Assembly (NCBI GenBank): GCA_902621205.1
Contig: CACNLH010000011.1
Span: 1 to 48,911 of the forward strand
Reading direction: 5' to 3'
Source of the DNA: an uncultured Alphaproteobacteria bacterium
GTDB lineage: Bacteria; Pseudomonadota; Alphaproteobacteria; HIMB59
Length of the DNA: 48,911 nucleotides
A model generated the notes under the pieces. It saw only the letters and a list, made by a program, of their open reading frames with translations, searched no databases and had not been told where the DNA came from. Shown here one piece after another: positions 22,128 to 42,059 of the stretch (positions are counted from its first letter, which is position 1; every line of letters begins with the position of its first letter). A program made the translations under genes and the position numbers.

Positions 22128-22204
22128 GCGCTCTTAGCTCAGCTGGATAGAGCATCTGCCTTCTAAGCAGAGGGTCGCAGGTTCGAATCCTGCAGAGCGC
22201 GCCA
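22128..22204 (+). tRNA. tRNA-Arg (UCU)
   Basis: A 77-base cloverleaf with encoded CCA. The acceptor stem is GCGCTCT (22128-22134) pairing with AGAGCGC (22194-22200), with discriminator G and CCA at 22202-22204. The anticodon stem TCTGC/GCAGA encloses CTTCTAA with anticodon TCT at 22162-22164, reading AGA and AGG. AGA is the dominant arginine codon in the genes here, so this tRNA should be heavily used. Confidence 0.97.
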
Positions 22205-22240
22205 ACAAATCAATATAATAAAGGATTAAATGTTAATTTA

Positions 22241-22894
22241 TCAATTTTCAAAAATTGAAATATCTAATTTATTTAAAAATTTTTTACAAAAACCGAAATT
22301 ATCGTCCAGATGAAACAGTCCTGGAAATGCGATACATTCTATTTTAGCTTTGTTGGCTGATAATGCACTCTCAACTGAGTCCTCTATTGCTATGCACTCA
22401 TTTTCTTTTACACTTAAATTTTTGAGGGCTTCAAAATATATATCTGGGTAAGGTTTCACTTTTTTTATTAGTTTACTGTTCCCAATAAAATTAAAATCTG
22501 TTTTTATTATTTTATCTTTAAGAGTTGTGAAAATAGCATCTATATTTTCAATTGTAGTCGTTGATGCTAGACCAATTTTAATATTGTTTAATTTAGCATA
22601 TTTAATTACCTCTAAAACACCCTCTCTCGGATTAATAATATTAGAATTTAAATATCTGTTAAAATATTGAGTTTTTAGTTCTCTAATTTTTTTTGAGTCT
22701 ACTGTGTTCTGATTAATATTAGCATAATATTCAACTCTATTTCTTCCCCCTGACTTTTTAAGTAAATTTTTGTAATTATTTTTATCCCAATACCAATCTA
22801 GTCCTATTTCCTTAAATGCATGATTAAATGACTGTCTTTGAATATCAGACGTTTCTACTAAAGTTCCTATAGATCCAAAAATTATTGCTTTCAT
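22241..22894 (-). CDS. HAD-like protein lacking the catalytic aspartates
   Basis: Protein of 217 aa with the overall pattern of CbbY/beta-phosphoglucomutase-type HAD hydrolases: a cap region after residue 16, KVKPYPDIYFEAL as the motif III lysine region and CIAIEDSVESALSANKAKIE as motif IV. Motif I is abnormal. Where active enzymes have DxDGT, this protein reads IIFGSIGTLVETS, so both the nucleophile and the acid/base aspartates are replaced (Gly and Ile). The nucleotide sequence at the start (GGATCTATA) confirms this. Either it is a non-catalytic member or its activity does not use the usual phospho-Asp. I believe similar GSIGT variants occur in other alphaproteobacteria, from memory only. 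It lies 31 bases downstream of the SDR and HpsN-like genes on the same strand. Confidence 0.75.
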   Translation of the reverse strand: MKAIIFGSIGTLVETSDIQRQSFNHAFKEIGLDWYWDKNNYKNLLKKSGGRNRVEYYANINQNTVDSKKIRELKTQYFNRYLNSNIINPREGVLEVIKYAKLNNIKIGLASTTTIENIDAIFTTLKDKIIKTDFNFIGNSKLIKKVKPYPDIYFEALKNLSVKENECIAIEDSVESALSANKAKIECIAFPGLFHLDDNFGFCKKFLNKLDISIFEN

Positions 22895-22925
22895 AACATT
22901 ATCTAATTTTTGTTAATTACTAATT

Positions 22926-23693
22926 TTATTTAGCAGTCCAACCACCGTCTACCACTATCGACGATCCTGTAATCATTGATGAACCATTTGATGCCAGATA
23001 TACAACTGCAGTAGCTACGTCACTTTCAGTAGCTAATCTACCAAGAGGTATATTTTTTAAAGTTTCTTTTTTAAATTTTTTATTAATAAAAAACTTTTTT
23101 ACCATTGGAGTTTCAACAAAAGTTGGACAAACAGAATTTACACGAATATTTTTTGAAGCTAAATCCAGAGCCATTCCTTTAGTCAACCCTTCAATGCCAA
23201 ATTTTGTCATATTGTAAGTACTTCTATTTGGTGCTCCAACTTTACCTAGCTGAGAGGACATATTAATAATACTTCCTCCATTTTTTTTTCTATTTTTAGA
23301 CTTTAACATCTTTCTGGATGCTAATTGCGCAACATGAAAAGAAGCTTTCAAATTTAAATCAACCATATAATCCATATCTTCTTTTTTAATTTTGTTAAAA
23401 AACTCAGGTATGTTTGTTCCCGCATTATTTACTAAAATATCTAATCTATTAATTTTTGAAAAAACTTCAGTTATTTGATCAAAATTAAATAAATCACAAA
23501 CATGAAAATCACATTTTCTTTTTAATTTGTTTATTTCTTTTTTAACTCTAATTAGATCTTTTTCAGTGCGACTTAAAATTATTAAGTCAGCACCTGCTTC
23601 TGCTAAAGCAATAGCTGAAGCTCTTCCAATACCTTTTCCCGCACCTGTTACAAGTGCTATTTTTTTCTTGAGACTTAAACTTTTTAAATACAT
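22926..23693 (-). CDS. SDR family oxidoreductase
   Basis: Short-chain dehydrogenase/reductase of 255 aa. The nucleotide motif is VTGAGKGIGRASAIALAEAG (about residues 15-34), followed by the NNAG motif (LVNNAGTNIPE), the catalytic Ser in NMSSQLGKVG and the YxxxK pair in STYNMTKFGIEG. The C-terminal GSSIVVDGGWTAK is the classical ending. LILSRTEKDL after the second strand, with Arg, hints at NADP preference. It is directly joined to the HpsN-like dehydrogenase (stop and start share one base), so it most likely acts on the same pathway alcohol or ketone. The substrate is unknown. Confidence 0.85.
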   Translation of the reverse strand: MYLKSLSLKKKIALVTGAGKGIGRASAIALAEAGADLIILSRTEKDLIRVKKEINKLKRKCDFHVCDLFNFDQITEVFSKINRLDILVNNAGTNIPEFFNKIKKEDMDYMVDLNLKASFHVAQLASRKMLKSKNRKKNGGSIINMSSQLGKVGAPNRSTYNMTKFGIEGLTKGMALDLASKNIRVNSVCPTFVETPMVKKFFINKKFKKETLKNIPLGRLATESDVATAVVYLASNGSSMITGSSIVVDGGWTAK

Positions 23694-25018
23694 TACTTAG
23701 GTTTTATTTTAGATACTGGTTTTCCATAGGCTACATTAATACCACCATATCTTCTTGCTCTAACATTACATTGTTCGGCATGACCTATAAAACCCTCTAA
23801 ATATGATAATCTTGATCCATATTCTGCAATTTTTGTAGCTGCTTCATCAGTTGTAATTTTTTGATAAGTATGAGTTTTTATAAATTTACCAACCCATAAA
23901 CCTCCTGTGTATCTTCCAGCTTTTTTTGTCGGTAAAGTATGGTTTGTTCCTATTACTTTATCTCCATTAGCAACATTTGTTCTTGCACCCAAAAAAAGTG
24001 CTCCATAAGATGTCATATTTTTTAAAAACCATTCATCTCTATCTGTCATAACTTGAACATGCTCTGAGGCTATTTCATTAGCTTTCATTAACATCTCATC
24101 ATAATTTTCACACAAAATTATTTCACCATAATCTTTCCAGCTAACACCAGCAGTATCTTTTGTTGGTAAAATTTTGAGCAGTCTATCTATTTCTTTCATT
24201 GTTTCTGTTGCTAAATCTCTTGAATTAGTAATCATTATTGCAGGTGAATTATAACCGTGCTCTGCTTGTCCAAGAAGATCTGTCGCACATATCTCTGCAT
24301 CTACAGTATCATCACAGATAATCATTGTTTCAGTAGGACCAGCAAATAAATCGATACCAACCTTACCAAATAATTGTCTCTTTGCTTCCGCAACGTATGC
24401 GTTTCCAGGACCAACAATCATATCTACTGGTTCTATGGTTTCAGTTCCAATAGCCATAGCTCCAACACCCTGCATTCCACCTAAAACGTATATTTCATGT
24501 GCCCCTCCCATTTTCATAGCTGTAACTACAGCAGCATTTGGTTTTCCTTGATAGGGTGGTGTTGTTGCTATTATTCTAGGAACTCCAGCAACTGAAGCAG
24601 TGACTACAGACATATGTGCTGATGCCACCATTGGAAATTTTCCAGCAGGAACATAACAGCCAACAGATTGAACAGGTATATTTTTATGTCCGAGAATTAC
24701 TCCAGGTTGAGTTTCCACTTCAATTTCACTTAAACTTTTTAATTGTGCCTCAGCAAACGATCGAACTTGTTTTTGTGCAAATCTAATATCCTCTTTGTCA
24801 TTATCAGAAACTTCATCCACTAATTTACTTATTTCATCTTCGGATAATCTAAATGAACTAGGTGAGTATTTATCAAATTTCTCTGATAATTCTCTTACAT
24901 AGCTATCTCCCTTTAATTCAATTTCTTTTAAAGTGTTCTCAACAACTGCTTTAACTTTATTGTTATCTTCGGCCCTTTGTTTTTCATTTAAGCTTTTTTT
25001 GATAAATTCAACAGACAT
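23693..25018 (-). CDS. Histidinol dehydrogenase-family enzyme, sulfopropanediol 3-dehydrogenase (HpsN)-like
   Basis: Zinc- and NAD-dependent alcohol dehydrogenase of 441 aa in the HisD superfamily. Zinc ligands are retained: Gln and His in [11 protein letters not shown], Asp in [11 protein letters not shown] and the C-terminal His in [13 protein letters not shown]. The catalytic Glu-His pair is in ASEHVQVM. Segments such as [40 protein letters not shown] and TNHTLPTKK look like the HpsN branch, which oxidises 2,3-dihydroxypropane-1-sulfonate to sulfolactate, rather than biosynthetic HisD. It lies among an SDR and SnoaL-like genes, not his genes, which also argues for a catabolic role. The substrate could be another diol. 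Two bases separate it from the upstream SnoaL-like gene. Confidence 0.8.
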
Positions 25019-25020
25019 TT

Positions 25021-26130
25021 TTATTTCTTATGAACTAATTTGAGCACATCTATACCTAATTGAAATAAAATATGGACAATATCTATTGGTACCCAATTTT
25101 CCCTAATAAGACCCTCATTATGTAAATAAAAGTCCATCACTCTCATAGTAACTAATTTATTAGTAGGTTCATATCCGAGCCAATCACTTGAACCGTGTGT
25201 TGCTTGAATACTGTGCCAACCACCTGTCATAGAGTAATTACCATCACCTATTTCAATGTAATGACCAATTTTCCAATAATTTCTCTCTTTAAACGTCAAT
25301 CTAAATGGTAGCTGATGATGCTCAATAAAACCTTTTAAACCTCTAGCAGTGCCTATACCACATGGTCCGTACCACATCATTTTCGGATGCCAATAATCTT
25401 TTTGAGGATGGTTTATTAATTTCTGTCTAACACTATCTTTAGTAGCTCCAGTCTCAGTTTCTGGTTTTATATCTAAACTTCTTTGCATCGTAAGACTCTG
25501 ATCAAGAGTTCTAGCTGATAAATCAGTATCTAGGTTTTCAAAGGTTGTTCCGTCACCAGTAATGGGTCCTGGCCACATTTCTTCTACACCTAAAGATGAA
25601 TTAATTGGCCAAAAACCTGCTTGCCTTATAAAATCCATTATATCAATTAACACATGAGAATTTATTATTTTTTCATTTTCTATTTGATGAACTTCACATA
25701 TTCGTAAATGAATAGTTTTACCATTGGAGGGAACTCCTAACCATGGATTGACAAAAGTGCCAGTCAAATGACCAACAGTTGAGACATAAACCCTATCTTG
25801 AAAACTTCCTCCAATTATTAAATTATCTCTTCTCTCTAAATCTGGAAAAGAATTCAGTAATGGTTTCCAAAGGGTATTAATTATTTCATCAATGCCTTTT
25901 ATGTGATTTACAGGGTGGAATGCATAGATTTCAGCATTTTCATGATATGCATTCTTTATATTTTGACTTAAATCAATATCTCTGGATTCAGAAATTTTTT
26001 TAAGAAGATTTCTAATTTTTTTTTTATTTAATATATTTTCTTTAGGGTCCAAATTTATAATTTTTGCCCCACTTTTAATTGGAATACCGGTATCAAAATT
26101 TTTAATTTCGCTCAAGTTATATTGCCTCAC
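25021..26130 (-). CDS. Tandem SnoaL-like protein, subfamily A, copy 1
   Basis: Protein of 369 aa with two SnoaL/NTF2-like (ester cyclase-type) domains. The first (about 40-180) carries [31 protein letters not shown] and a closing [15 protein letters not shown]. The second (about 235-365) carries the hallmark [37 protein letters not shown] and [17 protein letters not shown]. It is clearly paralogous to the gene at 29998. SnoaL-like folds serve as cyclases, isomerases, hydrolases or ligand-binding units, so no reaction can be assigned. It is first in a minus-strand set with the HpsN-like and SDR genes. The start is uncertain: GTG at 26130, or TTG at 26115 with the ribosome-binding site GGTGAGG nine bases before it. 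Confidence 0.75.
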
Positions 26131-26215
26131 CTATCTAATATAAATAAATATTACTTTGATTAACTTTATAATTTAAATAATATTTAATAAATTGAGGAAA
26201 TTTAAAATCTAATTA
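26131..26215. promoter_or_regulatory. Divergent promoter region, SnoaL-A1 / bicupin
   Basis: This 85-base AT-rich gap must hold the start signals for both the minus-strand SnoaL-A1/HpsN/SDR set and the plus-strand bicupin/SnoaL-B1/RraA/MetE-like set. A TATAAT lies at 26167-26172 without a good -35 element. No dyad operator is visible and no regulator gene lies in the cluster. Opposed transcription from one short gap suggests joint regulation of the two arms. Confidence 0.4.
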
Positions 26216-27190
26216 ATGACGCAGGATATTAACAGTCGTTTGGTAAAGTTTAATGAGCTTGTTCCTAGTAAAGTTCCGTTTGTAGAAGGGAAACTTAAAG
26301 GGCATCAAGATAGACTGAATTATTCTATAGTTGGCCCTGGAGTGAGTGAGGATACCAAGCAAAACGTCAAGATAGCTGAAGAACATGGTTTCAATATCGG
26401 TGCAGTAAGTGCCGCTCCAATGAACGGATCAGGACTCCATAGCCACACTACTGCAGAAGTATTTTTGATATTTTCAGGCTCTTGGCGCTTTTATTGGGGC
26501 ACAGATGGTAAAGAGGGCGAAGTAGTTTTAAACAAAGGAGATGTTGCTTCATTTCCCACTAATATGTTTCGAGGATTTCAAAATGTTAGTGATGAAAATG
26601 CATTAATATTTGTTGTTCTGGGAGAAAATGATCCGGGTGTGATAACGTGGACACCAAAAGTTTTAGAAAAAGCAAAAGAGTCTGGAATGGTTTTATTAAA
26701 TGATAATACCTTAGTTGATCTTGATAAGAATAAAATTCCAGATGGAAAAGTTGCCCTTGAACCTATTAAAGAAAAAGATCTAGAGTCTTTCGATCATTAC
26801 ACTTCTGAAGAGATTGAAAAATATGTAATACGTTATGAAAATAAGGACAAATATTTAAAAGATGATGAGCATTATGGCTCTAATTCAATTTTGAATTACC
26901 TTGACCATTTTAATGTTCATAACAAAGATTTTGAACCAAACATAAATCATAACACAGGTTTTGGTTTGACGATGTTAAAAGGTAATAATGCTCATATTCA
27001 TCCTTACACATTAAAAGAGTCTGAAGTTTATTTATGTTTAGAAGGTGAATGGGAAGTAACTTGCAATGATCAAAAAACCATAATTGGACCAAACGACTCT
27101 TTCTCGTCTCCCAGAGGATCAAATAGAAGTTTAAAAAATATTAGCAATCAAGAGGGAAGTATCTTTATTATACGACAAAAAAACCTCTAA
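26216..27190 (+). CDS. Bicupin protein
   Basis: Protein of 324 aa with two cupin barrels. The first (about 65-145) has the metal motif GLHSHTTAEVFLIFSG, matching G-x5-HxH-x3-E-x6-G, then PTNMFRGFQNVSDE as the second motif. The second (about 235-320) has AHIHPYTLKESEVYLCLEGE and SSPRGSNRSLKNIS. Bicupins include oxalate decarboxylases, dioxygenases and isomerases; the ligand sets look metal-competent, but the reaction is unknown. It opens the plus-strand arm and is followed 2 bases later by SnoaL-B1, so it belongs to that pathway. Confidence 0.82.
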   Translation: MTQDINSRLVKFNELVPSKVPFVEGKLKGHQDRLNYSIVGPGVSEDTKQNVKIAEEHGFNIGAVSAAPMNGSGLHSHTTAEVFLIFSGSWRFYWGTDGKEGEVVLNKGDVASFPTNMFRGFQNVSDENALIFVVLGENDPGVITWTPKVLEKAKESGMVLLNDNTLVDLDKNKIPDGKVALEPIKEKDLESFDHYTSEEIEKYVIRYENKDKYLKDDEHYGSNSILNYLDHFNVHNKDFEPNINHNTGFGLTMLKGNNAHIHPYTLKESEVYLCLEGEWEVTCNDQKTIIGPNDSFSSPRGSNRSLKNISNQEGSIFIIRQKNL

Positions 27191-27192
27191 TA

Positions 27193-28164
27193 ATGAAAGG
27201 TTTTGATAATAAATTTTTAGATCTACCAGATTATATATTTAAAATAACATATCAAATTTGGGAAAATAAGGATGTTGAGTCAATTAGAGACTATTATGCT
27301 GAGGGTATTCCAGTTAGATCTCCAGACGGTGTAATATATGGCCCTGATGCTGTAGTGAAGGCTACTTATGCCACTTTGAATGAATTTCCAGATCGACAGT
27401 TATTAGGCGAAGATGTTATTTGGATTGGTAATGAAGAACATGGATATTTATCATCACATAGAATTTTATCTAAGGCGACGCATTTAAATGATGGTATTTA
27501 TGGAAAAGCTACTGGTAAAACTCTCAAGTATCGAGTAATAGCTGATTGTGCTTGCAAGAATAACCAAGTTTATGATGAATGGCTTGTAAGAGACCAAGGT
27601 GCTATTGTGCGGCAGTTAAATATTGACCCTAAAAAACATGCAGCAAAAGTAATTGAAAACCAAGGCGGTAAAGATAAATGCCCAGCTCCCTTTAATAACA
27701 ATACCTCACATGAAGTAAAATATATTCAAATACCGATCTCAACAAATAATGCTGGAATAGATTATGCTAACATTTTAAAGGAAATATTTAATAATAATTT
27801 TAACATAATAGATAAAGTTTATGATCGATCAGTCAATCAAGAACAGCCTGGAGGCAAGAAAGCATTAGGGGTAGATGAGGTAAAGAATTTTTGGTCTTCA
27901 CTAAGATCTATGTTTCCGGTTTCAATTTTTAAAGTTGAACATGTAAGCTATTTAGAGGAAAAAAATGAGTATAAAAAGGCATCCATTAGATGGTCACTAG
28001 AGGGAATTCATTCAGGACCCGGATTATTTTCTGATCCTAGTAATGCAAATGTTCATATAATGGGCATATCTCAGGCTGAATTTGGTCCAAGAGGGATCAA
28101 AAATGAGTGGGTTCTGTTTGATGAAACAATAATTTGGAAACAAATTTTATTAAAAACTGGATAA
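27193..28164 (+). CDS. Tandem SnoaL-like protein, subfamily B, copy 1
   Basis: Protein of 323 aa with two SnoaL-like domains. The first (about 12-145) contains RSPDGVIYGPDAVVKATYAT, LNEFPDRQLLGEDVIWIG, LSSHRILSKATHLNDGIYG and IADCACKNNQVYDEWLVRDQ. The second (about 190-320) contains IRWSLEGIHSGPGLFSDP and the closing NEWVLFDETIIWKQIL. It is paralogous to the gene at 31098 (shared IADC/IANCxxKNNxxY and ITYxIWExK patterns) and only distantly similar to subfamily A. The function is unknown; it probably processes or binds a pathway intermediate. It is coupled to the bicupin upstream and to the RraA-like gene 3 bases downstream. Confidence 0.75.
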   Translation: MKGFDNKFLDLPDYIFKITYQIWENKDVESIRDYYAEGIPVRSPDGVIYGPDAVVKATYATLNEFPDRQLLGEDVIWIGNEEHGYLSSHRILSKATHLNDGIYGKATGKTLKYRVIADCACKNNQVYDEWLVRDQGAIVRQLNIDPKKHAAKVIENQGGKDKCPAPFNNNTSHEVKYIQIPISTNNAGIDYANILKEIFNNNFNIIDKVYDRSVNQEQPGGKKALGVDEVKNFWSSLRSMFPVSIFKVEHVSYLEEKNEYKKASIRWSLEGIHSGPGLFSDPSNANVHIMGISQAEFGPRGIKNEWVLFDETIIWKQILLKTG

Positions 28165-28167
28165 CAA

Positions 28168-28869
28168 TTGAAACTACTAACAAAAAGAGAAAAGAAAATT
28201 ATTGAATACATTAGAAATTTTGACACTCCAACTATTTCAAATTCGCTAGAATTATTAGATCCAACTTTAAGATCAAAAGGACACACACAAAAAACAATGC
28301 ATTGTCTAAATCCGAGTTTAAAACCAATTATTGGTTTTGCCAAAACAGCGATTATTACATCCAGAAAAAAAAAAAATACAAATATAATAAAAAATAGAGA
28401 TAAATATTATGAGTATATGTTCGAAGGAAACTACCCTAAGATTTGTGTTATCGAGGATAAGGATAAGACAAATACAATTGGTGCATGGTGGGGTGAACTT
28501 AATGCATCCATACATTTAAATTTTGGATTTGTTGGAGCTATAACAAATGGAGCAATGAGAGATTTACAGGAGATAAATAGAAAGTTTCAAATATTAAGTG
28601 GTGAAATAAGAGTTGGGCATGGATACAATCAAATTCATAAAATTAATTGTAATGTTGATATTTTTAATATGAAAGTAAGACCTGACGACCTTATTCATGC
28701 AGACATACACGGTGCTGTTATAATAAAAAGAGACTTTTTAATTGAATTACCATTGGCTATTAAAAAAATGATAAAAAAAGAAAAAATAATTTTTGATTTC
28801 TTAAGAAAAAATAAAAAATTTTCGAAAAAACAATTCTTAAATAAGTATAAACAATTTATCAATTCATAA
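28168..28869 (+). CDS. RraA family protein (class II aldolase/decarboxylase-like)
   Basis: Protein of 233 aa of the RraA / 4-hydroxy-4-methyl-2-oxoglutarate aldolase fold. The N-terminal FDTPTISNSLELL and the core WGELNASIHLNFGFVGAITN followed by GAMRDLQEI give the conserved Gly-x-x-Arg-Asp pair used for metal and oxoacid binding. IHADIHGAVII is the closing strand. Catabolic members cleave or decarboxylate 2-oxo acids, while true RraA inhibits RNase E; the gene context favours the enzymatic role. It starts at TTG 28168, since no in-frame ATG lies near and the family's N-terminus fits. It lies in the plus-strand arm between SnoaL-B1 and the MetE-like gene. Confidence 0.8.
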   Translation: MKLLTKREKKIIEYIRNFDTPTISNSLELLDPTLRSKGHTQKTMHCLNPSLKPIIGFAKTAIITSRKKKNTNIIKNRDKYYEYMFEGNYPKICVIEDKDKTNTIGAWWGELNASIHLNFGFVGAITNGAMRDLQEINRKFQILSGEIRVGHGYNQIHKINCNVDIFNMKVRPDDLIHADIHGAVIIKRDFLIELPLAIKKMIKKEKIIFDFLRKNKKFSKKQFLNKYKQFINS

Positions 28870-28874
28870 TTACT

Positions 28875-30005
28875 ATGGCATCTAAAATTTTGACAACACA
28901 CGTTGGGAGCTTACCAAGATCCAAAGAACTATCAGAATATCTCTTTGCCAAGGACAAGGGTGAAGAATACAACAAAAAATTATTTGGAAATATTTTAAGC
29001 TCAAATGTAGAACAAATTGTAAAAAGACAACTTGAAGTTGGGTTAGATTTCATAAGTGACGGTGAGATGAGCAAGATTAGTTATGCCACTTATATCAAGG
29101 ATAGAATTGATGGTTTTTCAGGAGAAAGTGAACGAAGAGCACCTGCCGATTTAGACGATTTTCCAGATTATAAGGAAAAGTTAGCTATTAGTGGTGGAAC
29201 ACCTACTTATTCAAGACCATGTTGCACCAATGAATTAAAAATAAAAGATAATTTTTCTTTGTTAAATGATATTAAAAATTTTAGCAACGCTTTAAAAAAG
29301 TATGATCATGCAAAAGCATTTATGAATGCAGCATCACCAGGTGTTATTAATGTTTTTATGCCAAATAAATTTTATGCTAGTGATGACGAATACTTAAATA
29401 AACTCTCTAGTATTATGGCAAATGAATATGAACAAATTACTAATGCAAATATTCATGTTCAGTTAGACTGTCCAGATTTAGCCCTAGCTAGGCATATGAA
29501 TTTTAAAGATCTATCTGAGGAGGATTTTTTAAAAAAAGCTGAAATGCAAATTGAGTGTTTAAATTATGCTTTAATAAATGTTGATATTGAAAAAACAAGA
29601 ATGCATATTTGTTGGGGCAATTATGAGGGACCACATACTCATGATATTGCTCTTAAAAAAATATTACCTATAATTCTAAAATCAAAAATTAAATATTTTT
29701 TAATTGAGTCATCTAATCCTCGTCACGCACATGAGTGGAAAGTCTTTGAAGAAATTAAATTACCAAAAGATAAAGTGTTAGTACCTGGTGTAATTGACTC
29801 TACATCTAATTTTGTAGAACACCCAGAAGTAGTAGCTGAAAGATTAATAAAGTATTCAACAGTAGTACCCAAAGATCAATTAATGGCTGGAACTGATTGT
29901 GGTTTTAGTACTTTTGCAGGTTTTGGAAAAATTGATGAAAATATTTGTTATGAAAAACTTATTGCATTAGTGGAGGGTACTAAACTCGCTTCTAAATTTA
30001 TTTAG
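28875..30005 (+). CDS. Cobalamin-independent methionine synthase II family protein (MetE-core / epoxyalkane:CoM transferase-like)
   Basis: Zinc-dependent thiol-transferase fold of 376 aa, corresponding to the C-terminal half of MetE. The N-terminus LTTHVGSLPRSKELSEYL is the family signature. Zinc ligands are visible: His and Cys in RMHICWGNYEG, Glu in FLIESSNPRHAHEW and Cys in AGTDCGFSTFAG. GLDFISDGEMSKISYATYIK and the length match the group that contains epoxyalkane:coenzyme M transferase and uncharacterised methyltransferases. A housekeeping MetE would be about 750 aa. It would move a methyl or alkyl group onto or off a thiol. Its 3' end overlaps the convergent SnoaL-A2 gene by 8 bases. Confidence 0.85.
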   Translation: MASKILTTHVGSLPRSKELSEYLFAKDKGEEYNKKLFGNILSSNVEQIVKRQLEVGLDFISDGEMSKISYATYIKDRIDGFSGESERRAPADLDDFPDYKEKLAISGGTPTYSRPCCTNELKIKDNFSLLNDIKNFSNALKKYDHAKAFMNAASPGVINVFMPNKFYASDDEYLNKLSSIMANEYEQITNANIHVQLDCPDLALARHMNFKDLSEEDFLKKAEMQIECLNYALINVDIEKTRMHICWGNYEGPHTHDIALKKILPIILKSKIKYFLIESSNPRHAHEWKVFEEIKLPKDKVLVPGVIDSTSNFVEHPEVVAERLIKYSTVVPKDQLMAGTDCGFSTFAGFGKIDENICYEKLIALVEGTKLASKFI

Positions 30006-31002
30006 AATTTTCATTTTTATTTCTCTCAAGTAAATCAATACCCACACATTTTAAAAAATGAAGATGATCAATTAATATCCAATTTTCTGCTATTTTATCT
30101 CCATCTCTTCTATAAAGGTCAACAACTCTCATCTCCCCAATAAGATCTGTGTCTTGTTTGAATCCCATGTAATTACCTTTTGGTTTCATTTTTAAATTTG
30201 GCCAACCAAACCATCCACCATAATTGCCCTCTGAGTTTTCAAGTATATGTCCGGAGAAATCAATAAAATCTAAATTATCTTCAAAAGGGCCTGTGTGACC
30301 TTTTAAATAACCTTCATAGGTATATGATGCACCAATACCCCCAGGTCCCCACCATATCATGTCTTCATGCCAGTCTTTATGTAGATCTTGAATTGTTGTC
30401 CTCATCCCTTCACCAATTAATCGATTTGCCATTCTCATTATAAGGTCAAGAGTTTTCTTTCCTTCTATTTCACTTTGTTTATCAAAGCATAAACCCTGAT
30501 GTGTTTTAGGTCCTGGATTAAAGCCAATCATCCCCGTTGACTCTGGGACAACTGATAAATTTAGATGTTGCATAAATTTTAAAATGTCTAAAAAAAAAGC
30601 ACCTTCTTGTATTTTGTTATCCTCTACTTTATAAAACTCGCAATACCATAACATTACAGTCTTAAAATTTGGTTGAATGTCAAAAAAAGGAAAATTAAAA
30701 CTTCCAAGCAAATGTCCCATATTCACAACCCATTTTGAAGAATGATTATCAACTAAATTTGTGCCAGCATAAAAGATATCCATTCTTCTTTGTATAGGCT
30801 TAAATGATTTTTTTATAGGAAACCAAAATTTTGTTGCAAATTCTTCAATGCCTATTATTTCGTTAAAAGGATGTGTACATTTCATATTAAAATTATTAGA
30901 TGTGTACTTAGAAATTATTTCAATTAAGTTATTTTCACTAGCATTATCAACTTCATTTATAAAATTTAATACTAATGATTTTTCTTTCTGAAAATCAGAC
31001 AT
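29998..31002 (-). CDS. Tandem SnoaL-like protein, subfamily A, copy 2
   Basis: Protein of 334 aa, a paralogue of the gene at 25021. The first SnoaL-like domain (about 10-150) has GIEEFATKFWFPIKKSFKP, GHLLGSFNFPFFDIQPN and a closing FFLDILKFMQHLNL. The second (about 190-330) carries the shared hallmark DWHEDMIWWGPGGIGASYTY, GGWFGWPNL and ILIDHLHFLKCVGIDLL. Residues between the domains include MIGFNPGPKTHQGL, matching [13 protein letters not shown] in copy 1. It is transcribed alone on the minus strand, divergent from SnoaL-B2 across 95 bases and overlapping the MetE-like gene at its end. The function is unknown. Confidence 0.75.
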   Translation of the reverse strand: MSDFQKEKSLVLNFINEVDNASENNLIEIISKYTSNNFNMKCTHPFNEIIGIEEFATKFWFPIKKSFKPIQRRMDIFYAGTNLVDNHSSKWVVNMGHLLGSFNFPFFDIQPNFKTVMLWYCEFYKVEDNKIQEGAFFLDILKFMQHLNLSVVPESTGMIGFNPGPKTHQGLCFDKQSEIEGKKTLDLIMRMANRLIGEGMRTTIQDLHKDWHEDMIWWGPGGIGASYTYEGYLKGHTGPFEDNLDFIDFSGHILENSEGNYGGWFGWPNLKMKPKGNYMGFKQDTDLIGEMRVVDLYRRDGDKIAENWILIDHLHFLKCVGIDLLERNKNENSK

Positions 31003-31097
31003 TAGTCTATTTATAATACAAAAGAAAAAATAATAATATTCATTTTATATAAAATCATTGCTTTGAATTTTATTTAATAGTATTAGTAAAATTATTT
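31003..31097. promoter_or_regulatory. Divergent promoter region, SnoaL-A2 / SnoaL-B2
   Basis: This 95-base AT-rich gap separates the divergent A2 and B2 genes, mirroring the A1/bicupin-B1 gap. I see no shared operator between the two gaps by eye. TTGCTT (31058) and TATTAG (31081) are 17 bases apart but are weak matches to promoter consensus. Confidence 0.35.
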
Positions 31098-32246
31098 ATG
31101 AAAAAAACTCTAATTAAAGATTTAAAACCAATCCCTTTAAAAGATCATCATATGCCAAAAAATTTTAATATCTCTCTTAAATCTTATGGTGGAGGTGGTA
31201 ATGCTAAATCTTTAAATCCAAATCCCAAAAATTTACCATTTCAATCAATGCGGGGATTTGAAAAACAATATAAAAATATAATTGATTATATTGTCAGAAT
31301 TACTTATAGCATATGGGAAGAAAAAAATATTGGCTATATATACGATACTTATAGTCCAAAATGTCGTGTTTGGGATGAACTTGGATTGCAATTCGGATCT
31401 GAAAAAATTGTCTCTGATACAGTTCATACTAATAACGCCTTCCCGAATATTCGATTATATGCTGATGAGGTAATATGGGCAGGAGACGACAAAACTAGTT
31501 TTCATACTTCACACAGAACTATAATTACAGGCACTAATACGGGTTATAGTAATTTTGCCAAACCAACAGGTAAATCAGTTAGGCTGTTCTGTATTGCAAA
31601 CTGTGTAGCAAAAAATAATGAAATATATTACGAAAATGTTGTTTACGATACTGCAGGTTTAATAAAACAATTAGGCTTAGACTTAAATGAAGTAGCAAAA
31701 CAAATTGCTAATAAAGGAAATATTGGTCCATTTGCTCCTGATTTCAGAAATTCAAAACCCAAAAGAAATATTAAAAAGTTAAAGCCTATAAGTTTCGCTA
31801 TACCTGATAAAATTAAAAACATTAGAGAATTTGTGCATGCAGTTTTTGATACTATTTGGAATAGAAGAAATTTTTCTGCTATTGATAGCGTTTATACAAA
31901 AAATATAAAATTCGAAGGCTCTACTAGTCGAAAATTTGTTGGAATACCTAAGCTTAAACATTTTATTATCTCATTAATTGCATCATTTCCTGATCTTGCA
32001 CTTAGTGTTGAAGATCTATATTGGATGGGAAATAGTAAAGATGGTTATTTAGTGTCAATTCGTTGGGGCGCTGTGGGAACTCATAAAGGAAATGGAATTT
32101 ATGGTAAACCATCTAATAAAGAATGTTATCTCTGGGGTATTACACAATGGGAAATTAAAAATAATAAAATTGTAAAAGAATGGACTGGTTTCAATGAATT
32201 GGCAATCTTAATACAAATTTTAGGGGAAAAAAATGAATATAAATGA
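31098..32246 (+). CDS. Tandem SnoaL-like protein, subfamily B, copy 2
   Basis: Protein of 382 aa, a paralogue of the gene at 27193 with a 50-residue basic N-terminal extension before FEKQYKNIIDYIVRITYSIW. The first SnoaL-like domain (about 55-195) shows ADEVIWAGDDKTSFHTSHRT and CIANCVAKNNEIYYENVVYD. The second (about 240-380) shows SFPDLALSVEDLYWMG, IRWGAVGTHKGNGIYG and IVKEWTGFNELAILIQILGE. The extension contains SYGGGGNAKSLNPNPKNLPF, is not hydrophobic and is not a signal peptide. It overlaps the small SnoaL gene by 14 bases. The function is unknown. Confidence 0.75.
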   Translation: MKKTLIKDLKPIPLKDHHMPKNFNISLKSYGGGGNAKSLNPNPKNLPFQSMRGFEKQYKNIIDYIVRITYSIWEEKNIGYIYDTYSPKCRVWDELGLQFGSEKIVSDTVHTNNAFPNIRLYADEVIWAGDDKTSFHTSHRTIITGTNTGYSNFAKPTGKSVRLFCIANCVAKNNEIYYENVVYDTAGLIKQLGLDLNEVAKQIANKGNIGPFAPDFRNSKPKRNIKKLKPISFAIPDKIKNIREFVHAVFDTIWNRRNFSAIDSVYTKNIKFEGSTSRKFVGIPKLKHFIISLIASFPDLALSVEDLYWMGNSKDGYLVSIRWGAVGTHKGNGIYGKPSNKECYLWGITQWEIKNNKIVKEWTGFNELAILIQILGEKNEYK

Positions 32247-32652
32247 AAATAAAATACTGTTGCAAAATATGTACGATGCTTTGAATGCACAAGATTTAGA
32301 GGCACAGCATAAATATTGGAACGATGATATGATTTGGCATGGACCTCCAGGTTTTGGCGATATTCACGGAATTGAAAATTTTAAATATAAGGTTCTCAAA
32401 CCTTTTTATGAGGCATTTCCAGACTATCATGTAAAAAATGATATTGTTGTCGCAGAAGGTGAATGGATAAGTGCGACGGGTTATTTAACTGGAACTCATA
32501 GCGGTACTTATCTAGGAGTAAAACCAACTGGAATGGCAATTAAAATGCAGTTTTCTGACTTTTGGACAATTAAAAATGGTAAATTTATGGATAATTATGT
32601 AATGGTCGATAACCATGGTGTTTTTGAACAAATGGGTCTTAGTTTTAAATAA
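32233..32652 (+). CDS. Single-domain SnoaL-like polyketide cyclase family protein
   Basis: A textbook SnoaL-like domain of 139 aa: LQNMYDALNAQDLEAQHKYW, then MIWHGPPGFGDIHGIENFK, FPDYHVKNDIVVAEGEW, LTGTHSGTYLGVKPTGM and VDNHGVFEQMGL. This is the best match to the classical family of the five in the cluster. Its DMIWHGPPGFG patch resembles DMIWWGPGGIG in the second domain of subfamily A. It overlaps SnoaL-B2 by 14 bases and lies 107 bases before the ABC binding-protein gene. The reaction is not assignable. Confidence 0.82.
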   Translation: MNINENKILLQNMYDALNAQDLEAQHKYWNDDMIWHGPPGFGDIHGIENFKYKVLKPFYEAFPDYHVKNDIVVAEGEWISATGYLTGTHSGTYLGVKPTGMAIKMQFSDFWTIKNGKFMDNYVMVDNHGVFEQMGLSFK

Positions 32653-32759
32653 AAAAGAATATGATAATAATTTCCGCGACCATTTCTCTTACATTTTAAT
32701 TTAAGTTTATTAGGTATAGTTATGATTATATTTTTACTTATAAACAGAAGAGGAAATAA

Positions 32760-33995
32760 ATGAAAAAACTAATACTAGCTTTATTGATCTCGTTTGCATC
32801 TACTAGCGTTTTTGCAGGTAGTCACTCACCTTGTGGCGTAACAAACGGATCAATAAATATTTTAGCGAACGAATTTACTACATACAGAATTTTTATGGAT
32901 GAAGTAAAAAGTTGCGCTGGTCCAGATGCAGATTTTAATGTTACGCACTCTGTTGACCATAACAAATTACAAGTAGCTGCCTTATCAGCAAATCCTGCTG
33001 AATTTTCAGCTAAATTAGTTACTAATGGCTCAATTACACCTTTAATGAATGACGGTTTAATTCGTCCACTTGATGATTTAGTTGAAAAATATGGTTCAAA
33101 CTTAAATGAAAATCAAAAGATTACAATTGATGGAAAGATTTATGCTGTAGCTTTTATGGCAAACGCACAACATCTTTGGTACAGAGAGAGTATTCTTAAC
33201 GATTTAGGAATAGCAGTTCCTTCTACTTATGAAGAGGTAATTGCTGCTGCTGAAAAAATCAAAGCAGCTGGAGTTATGGACAATCCATATGCTGGAGCTT
33301 TCAAGTCCGGATGGAATCTTGGTCAAGAATTTGTGAACATGTACCTTGGTCATGGTGGTGAATTTTTTAAATCAGGATCTGCTCAGCCTAATGTGAACAA
33401 CGAAAAAGGTGTTGCAGCTTTGAATGTTATTAAAAAATTAACTGAGTTAAGTAATCCTGATTTTTTAACACAAGATACAAATGCTGTTAAAGAAGAGTGG
33501 GAGTCCGGTAACGTTGCATTAATGCATGTTTGGAACTCAGGTGCTGCATCTTTACTTGATGATGAAGGTGATCAAGATATCAAAGCTGATACAAGATTAG
33601 CCCCATCACCAACTGTAGGTGGTGGTAGTAAACCTGCAACCACTCTTTGGTGGGATGGAATTGCAATTGCTACAAATACATCTGATGAAAATGCAGAGGC
33701 TTCATTTAGAGCTTTAGTTGGAGCTGCTTCATCAACTGATTTAGCTAATAATAATCCTAATGCAACTGTGTGGTTAATTAAAGGTTACACACCTGGTGAT
33801 ACTGCAGGGCCGGTTGTGGATGCTGCTAGTAGAGGTACAACACCTTACCCTAGTTTTCCACATATGAGCTTGATGCACGGTGCTTTGAGTACAGAACTTG
33901 TAGAATTTCTTCAAGGTAATGAATCAGCTGAAAAAGCATTAGCTGATGTTGAAGCTGCTTACATAGCCAAGGCTACTGAGCAGGGTTTTTTATAA
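32760..33995 (+). CDS. Carbohydrate-type ABC transporter substrate-binding protein
   Basis: Periplasmic binding protein of 411 aa, family 1 (MalE/SBP_bac_1-like). A signal peptide ends at STSVFAG. The mature region has HSVDHNKLQVAALSANPAEF, AVAFMANAQHLWYRESILND (the typical Y/W-Y-R/N start of lobe 2), GVMDNPYAGAFKSGWNLGQE and TTLWWDGIAIATNTSDENA. Family members bind oligosaccharides or small polyols. It follows the SnoaL cluster and precedes two permeases, separated from them by a hairpin. A good ribosome-binding site (AGAGGAAA) precedes it. The ligand may be the substrate of the SnoaL/HpsN locus or glucosylglycerate; the sequence cannot decide. Confidence 0.85.
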   Translation: MKKLILALLISFASTSVFAGSHSPCGVTNGSINILANEFTTYRIFMDEVKSCAGPDADFNVTHSVDHNKLQVAALSANPAEFSAKLVTNGSITPLMNDGLIRPLDDLVEKYGSNLNENQKITIDGKIYAVAFMANAQHLWYRESILNDLGIAVPSTYEEVIAAAEKIKAAGVMDNPYAGAFKSGWNLGQEFVNMYLGHGGEFFKSGSAQPNVNNEKGVAALNVIKKLTELSNPDFLTQDTNAVKEEWESGNVALMHVWNSGAASLLDDEGDQDIKADTRLAPSPTVGGGSKPATTLWWDGIAIATNTSDENAEASFRALVGAASSTDLANNNPNATVWLIKGYTPGDTAGPVVDAASRGTTPYPSFPHMSLMHGALSTELVEFLQGNESAEKALADVEAAYIAKATEQGFL

Positions 33996-34018
33996 AACTT
34001 AGCTATATTAAATTTGAT

Positions 34019-34053
34019 AGAGTGGTCCATAGATATGGTCCACTCTTTTTTTT
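34019..34053 (+). terminator. Intergenic hairpin with T-tract after the binding-protein gene
   Basis: AGAGTGGTCCA (34019-34029) and TGGTCCACTCT (34036-34046) pair with one T-T mismatch around a 6-base loop, followed by a run of T to 34053. It lies between the binding-protein gene and its permeases, only 10 bases before the next ATG. Partial termination here would make the binding protein more abundant than the permeases, as in mal operons. Confidence 0.7.
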
Positions 34054-34063
34054 AAGTAATTAA

Positions 34064-35092
34064 ATGCCTCATAAAACTTTCTTTTGGTTTATTCTACCCA
34101 CAGGCCTCGCTATGATTTTATTTATTGGCCTACCTATTGTATCTAGCTTTTTTCAATCATTACATATTGAAACTGAGCAGATCTTAATGGAAGTTGAAAA
34201 TTGTGATCCTTTTGGATGTAAAACAAATGTACGCGTTGATGTTGAGGCGACTGAAAAATTAAGACAGGAAAATCCTTTAGGGAGATTTAATGGGTTTGGT
34301 ACCTATACTGACAGAAATCATCTAGCATTTGATGAAATAGGGGAAGCTTGGAATACATCATCATCAATCGGTGAATTTAAAGATATTGTTTTAAATCTTC
34401 CTTTTTATAAAGCTCTTTTATTTACTCTAACTTTTTGTTTCGCTGTTACACCTCCAGTAATAATATTAGGTTTTATCGTGGCTTTGAGTGTGAACACTTT
34501 ATCTAAAATCATAAAAGGCTTCATAGTTTTTGGAACAATTCTACCTATGATTGTAACTCCCTTAATTGGATCTCTGGTTTTGTTTTGGATGATTGACTCG
34601 CAAGGTATAATTGGTGCTTCTATTCAAATTTTATTTGATGACCCCAATCTATCTTTGAAAGCATCCAGTAATTTAACATGGATTACTCTAATAATTTATG
34701 GGATATGGCATAACACTCCATTTGCTTTTGTTGTTTTTTATGCAGCGCTTCAAACAGTTCCTCAAGACCCAATAGAGGCTGCTTACATAGATGGAGCATC
34801 TAGATATCAAAGGGTGCGTTATATAGTTATTCCTCACCTTTATCCTGTAGCGACATTTATAATGTTAATATGCCTAATGGATAATTTTAGGGTTTTTGAA
34901 CCCATAATTGGATTTTCTGCAGAGGGTGTTGCTCAATCTTTATCATGGATGATTTATCAAGATTTAAGAAATGAAAATAAAATGCTCTTTGGATCTGCAG
35001 GTGCAACATCTATGCTTACCATAATTGGAATAGCCTTTTTACTTACACCAGTTTTAATAAGAACATGGAAAGAATTTAGGACTGAAAGATAA
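34064..35092 (+). CDS. Carbohydrate ABC transporter permease (MalF-like)
   Basis: Inner-membrane permease of 342 aa, BPD_transp_1 family. The first helix is FFWFILPTGLAMILFIGLPI. A periplasmic stretch of about 80 residues with two cysteines (NCDPFGCKTN) follows, then a block of five helices. The EAA loop that contacts the ATPase is DPIEAAYIDGASRYQRVRYI. It is followed immediately by the second permease with no gap. Confidence 0.9.
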   Translation: MPHKTFFWFILPTGLAMILFIGLPIVSSFFQSLHIETEQILMEVENCDPFGCKTNVRVDVEATEKLRQENPLGRFNGFGTYTDRNHLAFDEIGEAWNTSSSIGEFKDIVLNLPFYKALLFTLTFCFAVTPPVIILGFIVALSVNTLSKIIKGFIVFGTILPMIVTPLIGSLVLFWMIDSQGIIGASIQILFDDPNLSLKASSNLTWITLIIYGIWHNTPFAFVVFYAALQTVPQDPIEAAYIDGASRYQRVRYIVIPHLYPVATFIMLICLMDNFRVFEPIIGFSAEGVAQSLSWMIYQDLRNENKMLFGSAGATSMLTIIGIAFLLTPVLIRTWKEFRTER

Positions 35093-35974
35093 ATGGATAC
35101 AAAATTAAATAAGTACTCGAAGCAGCTTATTATTTTCAATGGCATTTTTATTTTATTTTGGCTCACTATCTCAATTTTCCCCTTTCTTTGGACTTTATGG
35201 GGCTCTTTTAAAGTAAAAGCAGATTTTTTTTCAAGAGCTGAGTGGACATATGCTTTAACGGGTTTCAATACATTGATTGAAACAGGTGCAACTACAACTG
35301 TAAAAGCTTATGTTGAGTCATGGTTTGAAGGTGAGTTTTGGAGAGCTTCATTGAATACAATGATTGTCACTGTATCAGTAGTATCAATCTCATTATTTCT
35401 TGGAACATTAGGTGCTTATGCTTTGTCAAGATCAACATATAAATATACCTTTTATATTTTAATAGCTGCTTTGATATTTAGAGCTATGCCTCACATTACT
35501 TTAGTCTCAGGATATTTATTTCCTTTTTTTCAATTAAATATATGGGGAATTTTGCCTACCACCATTATTGTGTTAGTTGCCATTAATCAACCTTTTACCT
35601 TGTGGCTTCTTTATTCTTTTTTTAAGACAGTTCCAAAAGAATTAGATGAAAGCGCATTAATTGATGGATGCTCTTATTTTCAAGCCTTTCGTTATATTAT
35701 TATGCCAGTCATGTGGCCCGGAGTTGTGACAGCAGGCTTGTTCAGTATGATGTTAGCATATAATGATTTTACTGTTACTGCATTATTGCTTAATCAACAG
35801 AACTATACAATGGTTCCAAAAATAAATGCATTTTTAGGAACTATTGAGCATGGTGGAAACTACATGTGGGCAGTATCTAGTGTTGTTTCTGCTACCGCCC
35901 CTTTATTTATGATTATATGGTTTTTTCAGCGTCAACTTATAAGTGGTCTTACTGCTGGAGCTGTAAAAGGCTGA
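35093..35974 (+). CDS. Carbohydrate ABC transporter permease (MalG-like)
   Basis: Inner-membrane permease of 293 aa, BPD_transp_1 family, six helices. The EAA loop is KELDESALIDGCSYFQAFRY followed by IIMP. FPFLWTLWGSFKVKADFF near residue 27 is the typical first helix-loop. The operon ends here: the next gene is a kinase after 107 bases, and no ABC ATPase is present in the operon, so this importer must borrow one encoded elsewhere. Confidence 0.9.
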   Translation: MDTKLNKYSKQLIIFNGIFILFWLTISIFPFLWTLWGSFKVKADFFSRAEWTYALTGFNTLIETGATTTVKAYVESWFEGEFWRASLNTMIVTVSVVSISLFLGTLGAYALSRSTYKYTFYILIAALIFRAMPHITLVSGYLFPFFQLNIWGILPTTIIVLVAINQPFTLWLLYSFFKTVPKELDESALIDGCSYFQAFRYIIMPVMWPGVVTAGLFSMMLAYNDFTVTALLLNQQNYTMVPKINAFLGTIEHGGNYMWAVSSVVSATAPLFMIIWFFQRQLISGLTAGAVKG

Positions 35975-36081
35975 TAAATATTTAATAAAAATATCTAAAT
36001 CTATATTATAAACCAAATTTACTTTATTTTATCTGTTGAATGAAATTTTAATAAAATCTTTTTAAATGATATTATTTAAAT

Positions 36082-36936
36082 ATGTCTGAAATTAACTCTA
36101 AATTATACTTTATCCAATATACTCTTAAAAAGTTAACTGGAAAAATGCTAAGTTTTGATGAGATTAATGATACCTACTTGAGGTTGTTTACGAAGTTACA
36201 ATATAAAAAAACAATTATGATTGCAGGATCCCAAGGGTCAGGTAAATCGACATTATCTTTAATAATTAAAAAATATTTTCAAAAATTTTATTCAAAGAAT
36301 GTTGTTATATTGAGTATTGATGATTTCTATTTATCTTCTTATCAAAGAAAAAAATTAGCTAAAAAATTTAAGACAAATTTATTCGAAACCAGAGGTGTGC
36401 CTGGTACTCATAATTTTAAATTGTTATATGAAACTATTGATCAATTGAGGAGTAAGAAATTCCCTGTATATTCACCCACATTTGACAAGGTAACTGATAA
36501 TACAAAAAAATATAAAAGAAAAATTATTAGAGCTGATTTAATCATTTTAGAAGGATGGTGTGTTGGCTCAAAAATAATTGATACTAAATATTTAAATCAA
36601 AATATTAATGAGTTAGAAATAAATAAAGACCAAAACTTAATTTGGAGAACAGCTTATAATAATTTCTTAGATGATTATCAAAAAATTTTCAATAAGTTTA
36701 ATTATTATATTTTTATTAAGTTACCAAATTGGGAAAATGTTATTAATTGGAAATATAAACAAGAGTTGGCGCTTCGCTCTTTAAGTAACGATAATAAGCT
36801 TAAAAAGAGACTTTATAAATTTATTCAATATTATGAGAAATTATCTAAATGGATGTCTATGACCACTCCCACTTATTGTAATGTTTTAATATCTTTAGAT
36901 AAAAATCAATCTATTAAGAATATTACATATAAATGA
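36082..36936 (+). CDS. D-glycerate kinase, GLYK-type P-loop kinase
   Basis: P-loop kinase of 284 aa resembling eukaryotic-type D-glycerate 3-kinase and the related YggC/UdgK-like kinases. Walker A is IAGSQGSGKSTLSLII (about residues 47-62). VVILSIDDFYLSSYQRKK gives the catalytic Asp-Asp, and FETRGVPGTHNFKLLYETID is diagnostic of the GLYK group. LIILEGWCVGSK is the Walker B-like strand. In plants the family makes 3-phosphoglycerate from D-glycerate with ATP. Position directly before glucosylglycerate genes (4-base overlap) makes D-glycerate the likely substrate here. There is no signal or membrane segment. Confidence 0.82.
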   Translation: MSEINSKLYFIQYTLKKLTGKMLSFDEINDTYLRLFTKLQYKKTIMIAGSQGSGKSTLSLIIKKYFQKFYSKNVVILSIDDFYLSSYQRKKLAKKFKTNLFETRGVPGTHNFKLLYETIDQLRSKKFPVYSPTFDKVTDNTKKYKRKIIRADLIILEGWCVGSKIIDTKYLNQNINELEINKDQNLIWRTAYNNFLDDYQKIFNKFNYYIFIKLPNWENVINWKYKQELALRSLSNDNKLKKRLYKFIQYYEKLSKWMSMTTPTYCNVLISLDKNQSIKNITYK

Positions 36937-37766: not shown

Positions 37767-37768
37767 CC

Positions 37769-40706: not shown

Positions 40707-40740
40707 TAAACTTATTTATATCTAAGATTCTCTAATACTA

Positions 40741-42012: not shown

Positions 42013-42059
42013 GACTTTTTGTAATACTTACAATATAAAAATTATGATATATTTAAATT

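Follow-up and report, generated by a model that had tools for sequence, protein, structure and literature searches.

Tandem SnoaL-like proteins in a widespread gene cluster, apparently of the import-and-catabolism type, in a HIMB59 alphaproteobacterium and other lineages

What might five SnoaL-like proteins, with nine domains among them, be doing side by side in 7.6 kb of the genome of an uncultured alphaproteobacterium of the HIMB59 lineage? The window analysed here (a stretch of 48,911 nucleotides, contig CACNLH010000011.1 of assembly GCA_902621205.1; contig C11 in our numbering of this 1.30 Mb genome, which is 86% complete) carries two families of tandem-domain proteins, A and B, each present twice, and a single-domain protein, C. 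An earlier note made from the sequence of the window had proposed that these proteins act in one pathway. The co-occurrence of A and B across genomes makes a shared pathway the best reading, and the genes that accompany them suggest, at a probability that we put at about 0.6, a catabolic gene cluster for an imported small compound, induced by its substrate where a LacI-family regulator remains, in which A and B would perform acid-base steps.

Two tandem families that occur together

A1 (369 residues, GTG start) is encoded on the reverse strand at 25,021–26,130. It faces a forward-strand coding stretch, 26,216–28,164, that had been taken as a single bicupin-B1 unit; the stretch is coding as claimed but holds two open reading frames (ORFs), a bicupin gene (26,216–27,190) and B1 (323 residues, 27,193–28,164). 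A2 (334 residues, reverse strand, 29,998–31,002) and B2 (382 residues, forward strand, 31,098–32,246) repeat this divergent geometry, which recurs in related loci, and C (forward strand, 32,233–32,652) shares its first 14 bp with the end of B2. The ORF positions of A1, A2, B2 and C agree with those first given. As whole proteins all five pass the gathering score of PF07366, which supports their assignment as SnoaL/NTF2-like, and a search of the whole genome with this profile (E ≤ 0.01) recovered the proposed nine domains, all within 25,057–32,631, two in each tandem protein and one in C, with none outside the cluster. In A1 the N-terminal match lies at 25,621–25,965 and the C-terminal one at 25,057–25,401, and in B1 the two lie at 27,247–27,618 and 27,772–28,146. 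Taken singly, 6 of the 9 domains score above the gathering cut-off and 3 below it (the N-terminal domain of B2 and both domains of A2); PF13577 (SnoaL_4) had no match in the genome.

Profile-profile comparison indicates that the five domain types are homologous (E-values of 1e-16 for A_N with A_C, 1e-18 for B_N with B_C and 2e-35 for A_C with C), the A-B pairs being weaker (5e-6 to 3e-7). The hallmark motif shared by the second domains of A1 and A2 is present in the translations (WHEDMIWWGPGGIG in its A2 form), as are the motifs shared by B1 and B2 (ITYQIW/ITYSIW and IADCACKNNQVY/IANCVAKNNEIY). Structure prediction, done for A1 and B1, gave confident AF2 models (mean predicted local distance difference test scores of 95.1 and 96.2) whose single-domain Foldseek neighbours are of the SnoaL type: AclR, IdmH and ChaU, plus SnoaL2 for B1 (TM-scores 0.64–0.82 on the target). 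For phylogenies, a length filter removed 9 of 167 A rows and 1 of 133 B rows, and thinning at 85% identity left 68 A and 45 B. The A tree has three broad clades, the A1 type (17 rows, support 98), the A2 type (22 rows, support 100) and A3 (15 rows, support 100), which is present in some relatives and has no member in the window.

Whether A and B travel together was examined in one draw of 385 Alphaproteobacteria searched with A1 and with B1. The A1 query matched 36 genomes and the B1 query 30; only hits judged near full length were counted, which excluded short or weak hits in 8 and 1 of these genomes, respectively. A was thus found in 28 genomes, B in 29 and both in 26 (Fisher's test entered with n=386, 385 genomes having been examined; 7e-35), and without the window's order the corresponding counts are 24, 25 and 22 (2e-30). 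Two genomes have A only (G482 and G509) and three B only (G163, G378 and G394). In 20 of 23 position-checked genomes A and B lie within 15 kb of each other; in the other 3 they are on separate contigs. The possibility that the two families occur independently therefore does not hold.

The same picture emerges from the genes around B. Loci with a B1-type alignment were collected as the best 80 of 572 confirmed, so that the sample leans to close relatives; 54 of them are well flanked (a called B gene and at least 6 kb on each side), 24 have a short flank and 2 have no called B. Genes were called with a home-made longest-ORF caller, which is poor in GC-rich loci (over-long starts, merged or missed genes) and found no B gene in L162 and L163; gene families were built by single linkage, and some matches may be paralogues. 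Among the 54 well-flanked loci, A is present in 53, the solute-binding protein (SBP) of an ATP-binding cassette (ABC) importer in 52, its permease P2 in 51, the cupin in 51, permease P1 in 50 and a MetE-like enzyme in 50. Less constant are a HisD-like dehydrogenase (48), an SDR oxidoreductase (36), a HAD-type hydrolase (36) and LacI (35). Records with titles such as uncultured Alphaproteobacteria supply 32 of these loci; all 32 have A, P2 and MetE, while cupin, SBP, P1 and HisD are each found in 31, SDR in 30, LacI in 28, HAD in 26 and C in 18. The 12 Pelagibacteraceae-labelled loci all have A, cupin, MetE, SBP and P2, 11 have P1, and 10 have HisD and HAD; LacI and C are absent throughout. Of these loci, L119 groups in the A and B trees with the window's relatives and not with the other Pelagibacteraceae-labelled rows. 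L119 / L071 (genome G087) show apparent decay or poor assembly, with HisD, SBP, P1 and P2 as short ORFs and A2/B2 uncalled. The four Acidimicrobiia loci all have A, cupin and SBP.

SAR11-labelled loci have one A and one B in the stretches examined, and the divergent order of A against cupin-B is common to them and the window; the order of A2 against B2-C is found, among the loci listed, only in those resembling the window's order. The window's order is presumably HIMB59/AEGEAN-169, for which PMC10734472 names two families. Within that order 104 of 150 genomes matched a B2 query (B1-type matches included), and an A1 query matched 19 of 36 other genomes of the window's own genus, including 4 of the 7 with a completeness of 90% or more. 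Because A1 is present in only part of its own genus, the cluster looks like an accessory trait.

Related clusters are also found further afield. Roseobacter plasmids carry annotations for a sugar importer, a regulator, hisD, a cupin, MetE-II and hydrolases at the cluster; the Ruegeria conchae plasmid has five 'ester cyclase' genes with LacI, hisD, SDR, cupin, MetE-II, RraA, an alpha/beta hydrolase and an amidohydrolase. Marinovum algicola plasmid pMaD9 (L194, 21,888–28,981) has a related cluster, which adjoins genes annotated for demethylation of dimethylsulfoniopropionate. A Vibrio pelagius plasmid carries a related set in which neither hisD nor MetE appears within the stretch shown, and a plasmid of the haloarchaeon Halobellus limi (L099, 14,911–21,304) has five consecutive 'ester cyclase' genes with a MetE-II gene. 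Deinococcus has a related annotated set, and Priestia filamentosa has a B homologue with LacI, SDR, cupin, hydrolase, aldolase and hisD.

That no pathway with this set had been described agrees with our searches of the open-access literature: no paper combining SnoaL with histidinol dehydrogenase was found, none combining ester cyclase with histidinol dehydrogenase was among the matches found, and in broader searches the term SnoaL was absent among the top matches listed. The words cyclase, histidinol and cupin are absent from the main text of the HIMB59/AEGEAN-169 papers that were searched. Each part of the cluster comes from a known family; what is new is the combination of genes and its spread. 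We thus regard this as a widespread cluster that is apparently of the import-and-catabolism type and undescribed in the open-access literature searched.

Conserved residues and accompanying enzymes

In SnoaL the acid/base is Asp121, with His107 (PMC6830212). The Asp121 position (Thr131 in IdmH) corresponds to Val123 of C in a direct alignment and to Val or Leu in the A1 and B1 domains in profile alignments to C, those of B to C being weaker (E 4e-6 to 6e-9); in A_N of the A3 clade it is mostly Ala or Ser. No acidic counterpart of Asp121 was thus seen in the window domains by direct or profile alignment. Where SnoaL has His107, A and C carry an acid (Glu146 and Asp333 in A, Asp109 in C) and B_N carries Ala; where it has His119, B carries Glu (Glu129, Glu305). 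Across the A clades Arg101, Arg143, Glu146, Asp163, Arg330, Asp333, Glu344, Asn345 and Asp350 are near-invariant, as are Glu24, His89-Arg90, Glu129, Asp134, Arg266, His273, Glu305 and Gln317 across the B clades. Since Asp121 is replaced and other acids are near-invariant together with Arg and His residues, we expect A and B to catalyse acid-base steps with a base placed unlike SnoaL's, rather than by a copy of its mechanism. The missing acid, together with the maintenance of A and B as a pair, could also be explained if they had no catalytic function and instead bound a ligand, gave protection or served as a scaffold, perhaps with A-B hetero-oligomers surrounding other enzymes. This we consider doubtful, for near-invariant polar residues across both sets of clades are what is expected of enzymes.

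Downstream of A1, on the same strand, lies a HisD-superfamily dehydrogenase (23,693–25,018), assigned from structure matches and a motif. Its nearest solved relatives are HpsN enzymes, the 3-dehydrogenases of dihydroxypropanesulfonate (DHPS; 8v35, 8wwe), with 372 bits against 247 for histidinol dehydrogenases, and the Glu-His pair is kept; the protein also scores above the TIGR00069 cut-off, and a second HisD-family gene of the same genome, on contig C9, is 30% identical to it. The cluster might accordingly be thought to serve sulfonate catabolism, with this enzyme as an HpsN that converts R-DHPS to sulfolactate, and a GRYAH-type HisD does lie near the cluster in nine SAR11-labelled loci. The HpsN-specific motif, however, is G-R-Y-A/S-H, whose His126 binds the sulfonate (PMC11382572). 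The window enzyme has GKFPM, with Met at the His126 position. GKFPM is also the form in 59 of 91 HisD rows, including many close relatives, and 10 of the 91 end the motif in His. The gene neighbourhood is also different, several further enzymes of the cluster would be left unexplained, and the words SnoaL and cupin are absent from the main text of a marine DHPS paper (PMC11131964). DHPS catabolism is therefore improbable and was set aside on the His126 motif; since GKFPM replaces the sulfonate-binding His, the enzyme probably acts on a substrate other than HpsN's.

Several observations concern the HisD-like genes of other loci. Nine HisD-family rows have GRYNN at the motif. In L161, L171, L175 and similar SAR11-labelled loci the cluster is adjoined by a GRYAH-type HpsN-like gene, and also by a mannosylglycerate-hydrolase-like gene (PF22422) and by genes for another ABC importer of the sugar type. 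In the left flank of L120–L155 the HisD-like gene is often preceded by genes that, to go by their first residues, look like cysQ, cysD and cysNC.

In the bicupin (324 residues) the first cupin retains HxHxxxE, Arg119 replaces the usual last His of the second motif, and the second domain is less conserved. An RraA-like aldolase family protein (forward strand, 28,168–28,869) is an optional member, its family being found in 10 of the 54 well-flanked loci. It is followed on the same strand by a protein like the C-terminal part of MetE (cobalamin-independent methionine synthase II family; 28,875–30,005), a putative zinc alkyl-transfer enzyme. Its His244, Cys246 and Cys342 are each conserved in at least 93% of 84 rows, and since we take these to be the zinc-ligand positions, the enzyme is likely to alkylate a thiol. 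The SDR oxidoreductase (22,926–23,693) and the HAD-type hydrolase (22,241–22,894) are encoded on the reverse strand, and the importer on the forward strand: a sugar-type solute-binding protein, SBP_bac_1 (SBP1; 32,760–33,995), followed by permeases P1 (34,064–35,092) and P2 (35,093–35,974). This set of genes is found again in related loci.

The fold itself could point to biosynthesis. A and B share fold and family profile with the polyketide cyclases SnoaL, SnoaL2, AclR and IdmH (PF07366, 'ester cyclase'), and Foldseek with whole chains ranks two-domain polyether epoxide hydrolases first, Lsd19 for B1 and MonBI-MonBII and Lsd19 for A1, so that the SnoaL domains might be cyclases of a polyketide-like cluster. 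These proteins nevertheless differ from A and B. Identity to Lsd19 and MonBI-MonBII is 8–13%, and the low query TM-scores (0.29–0.35) and large root-mean-square deviations over both domains (15.9–17.4 Å) imply a different domain arrangement; their setting is biosynthetic, unlike the neighbourhood of A and B. The SnoaL-type cyclases, in turn, have the Asp121 that finds no counterpart here, and A and B are tandem proteins in a catabolic-looking neighbourhood. With a sugar-type importer present and no polyketide synthase among 30 Pfam-scanned window proteins, including every ORF of at least 120 residues in the genomic island described below, a biosynthetic role is very improbable.

Recent local duplication of an A-B module without deeper meaning, which the equal relative orientation and common motifs of A1/A2 and B1/B2 might suggest, is scarcely credible, since A1 and A2 are only 31% and B1 and B2 33% identical, against 64–82% for the best A1 and B2 orthologues of the two families, and the paralogues fall in separate, old clades. 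In approximately unbiased (AU) tests, forcing A1 and A2 of the window's order into one clade cost 239 log units (p-AU 0.00013; a 62-row tree made by a quick method, with a further 6 A rows omitted), and forcing B1 and B2 together cost 43 (p-AU 0.019, with a long-branch warning). The trees do not bear out the earlier note's 'duplicated modules' if these are taken to have duplicated at this locus.

A LacI-family regulator, a palindrome and a genomic island

Related loci carry a gene of about 345 codons, without counterpart in the window, that Pfam identifies as a LacI-family regulator. When gaps were first scanned for palindromes with a CG centre, 23 sister-family loci yielded none and 4 loci from the family of the window a single one; 7 of 14 roseobacter-type loci had hits, and from these a candidate operator was read. 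This 18-bp palindrome, TTTGCATACGTATGCAAA, is found in many roseobacter-type loci, often in two copies, close to the divergently transcribed genes for A and for the ATPase or SBP; owing to over-long gene starts, many copies appear as if inside A or the ATPase gene. With up to 2 mismatches it has 30 hits in 123 loci (in 23 of them; several loci with the cluster show none) and each of 60 scrambled palindromes has 0; with up to 3 mismatches there are 45 hits against a scrambled mean of 1.3 and maximum of 9, and with up to 4 the excess shrinks (62 hits, compared with 25 and 15 for two Markov shuffles). Throughout ten whole genomes (2.0–4.6 Mb), all 16 sites with up to 2 mismatches lie at the SnoaL cluster, and a reversed control gave 0. 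These ten were picked, out of the 26 genomes that have A as well as B, on the ground that the motif had been seen in their loci, so that only the exclusiveness, and not the 'ten of ten', is independent.

We infer that LacI binds this palindrome. In relatives the cluster resembles LacI-regulated sugar ABC catabolic operons, with LacI, SBP_bac_1, two permeases, an ATPase and dehydrogenases, and with a palindrome restricted to the cluster in the ten chosen genomes; it differs in that several SnoaL proteins, a bicupin and a MetE-like enzyme replace the usual sugar route.

In the window the cluster lies on a genomic island. The window is collinear with a complete genome of the same genus (G030) up to position 22,204, the last base of a tRNA-Arg(TCT) gene (forward strand, 22,128–22,204), and again from 42,056. 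The inserted stretch of 19.85 kb (22,205–42,055), which holds the SnoaL cluster and a block of GH13, kinase and phosphatase genes, thus starts at the 3' end of the tRNA and is absent from that site in G030, and A1 has no match in that genome. No exact second copy of the last 12 tRNA bases was found in the window, and no integrase was found by Pfam among the scanned island ORFs of at least 120 residues, two of which have no Pfam match. At the site G030 has about 1.0 kb with one 310-residue ORF, which presumably resembles homocysteine S-methyltransferase; given this single ORF, cassettes may be exchanged within the genus at the island site (window; L192). The second island block (36,082–42,012) encodes a PRK-type kinase, a sucrose-phosphatase-like HAD protein and a GH13 enzyme, the last with a 66% relative at another place in G030; two further proteins (37,769–38,980 and 40,741–42,012) match nothing in Pfam. 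It looks like glycoside metabolism and may be of the glucosylglycerate type.

A possible route and its meaning

The importer, LacI and the dehydrogenases suggest catabolism of an imported alcohol-bearing compound. We infer the catabolic direction, the order of the steps and every individual reaction of the following route. The ABC importer, of sugar/polyol type (SBP1-P1-P2, with an ATPase gene adjoining in some relatives), would take up a small hydrophilic compound that probably comes from algae or animals. A primary alcohol would be oxidized towards the carboxylate by the HpsN/HisD-like enzyme, and a secondary alcohol to the ketone by the SDR. The tandem SnoaL proteins, A and B, would then carry out acid-base steps on the carbonyl compound so formed (isomerisation, hydration or dehydration, or retro-aldol cleavage). 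The MetE-like zinc enzyme would pass an alkyl group, methyl or another, on to a thiol. In some members, aldolases of the RraA or HpcH type and alpha/beta hydrolases would complete the breakdown of the fragments. A1 and B1 would form the core pair, with A2-B2-C and A3 as accessory proteins, probably for substrate variants or extra steps.

Several points weigh against this proposal. LacI regulators and importers can also serve the uptake of precursors. LacI is absent from all 7 searched genomes of the window's genus (it is present in all 7 searched sister-family genomes), the palindrome is missing from the window even at up to 4 mismatches, and the sister-family loci, although they have LacI, showed no good match to it. 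Since HisD and SDR are not tied to A and B in every lineage, the dehydrogenases may not be core: SDR is found in 0 of the 12 well-flanked Pelagibacteraceae-labelled loci, and in 9 of 13 SAR11-labelled loci with HisD this gene has the HpsN motif and stands apart from the A/cupin-B-MetE group. Even the catalytic role of A and B is a deduction, as the catalytic Asp of SnoaL has no acidic counterpart in the window domains.

A bolder version, reached by chemical reasoning from gene content, would make A and B key to the ocean-wide breakdown of a cyclic, methoxylated, hydroxymethyl-bearing metabolite, for example the mycosporine-like amino acids, which are algal sunscreens. The HpsN-like enzyme would then oxidize the ring hydroxymethyl, the MetE-like enzyme would remove the O-methyl group, the tandem SnoaL proteins would hydrolyse a beta-diketone-type core or open its ring, and an RraA-type enzyme would perform aldol cleavage of a tertiary hydroxy acid. 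We regard this as a long shot.

The same importer and tandem-SnoaL enzymes are found in SAR11-labelled records, in single amplified genomes of the window's own lineage, in roseobacters and in metagenome-assembled genomes of Acidimicrobiia, and the importer of the cluster would pass as a generic sugar transporter. If the catabolic reading is true, a common share of dissolved organic matter would be consumed by way of A and B, and the importer and the palindrome would offer direct handles on the compound, through ligand screens and reporter strains. Tandem SnoaL domains would then have a role in catabolism as well.

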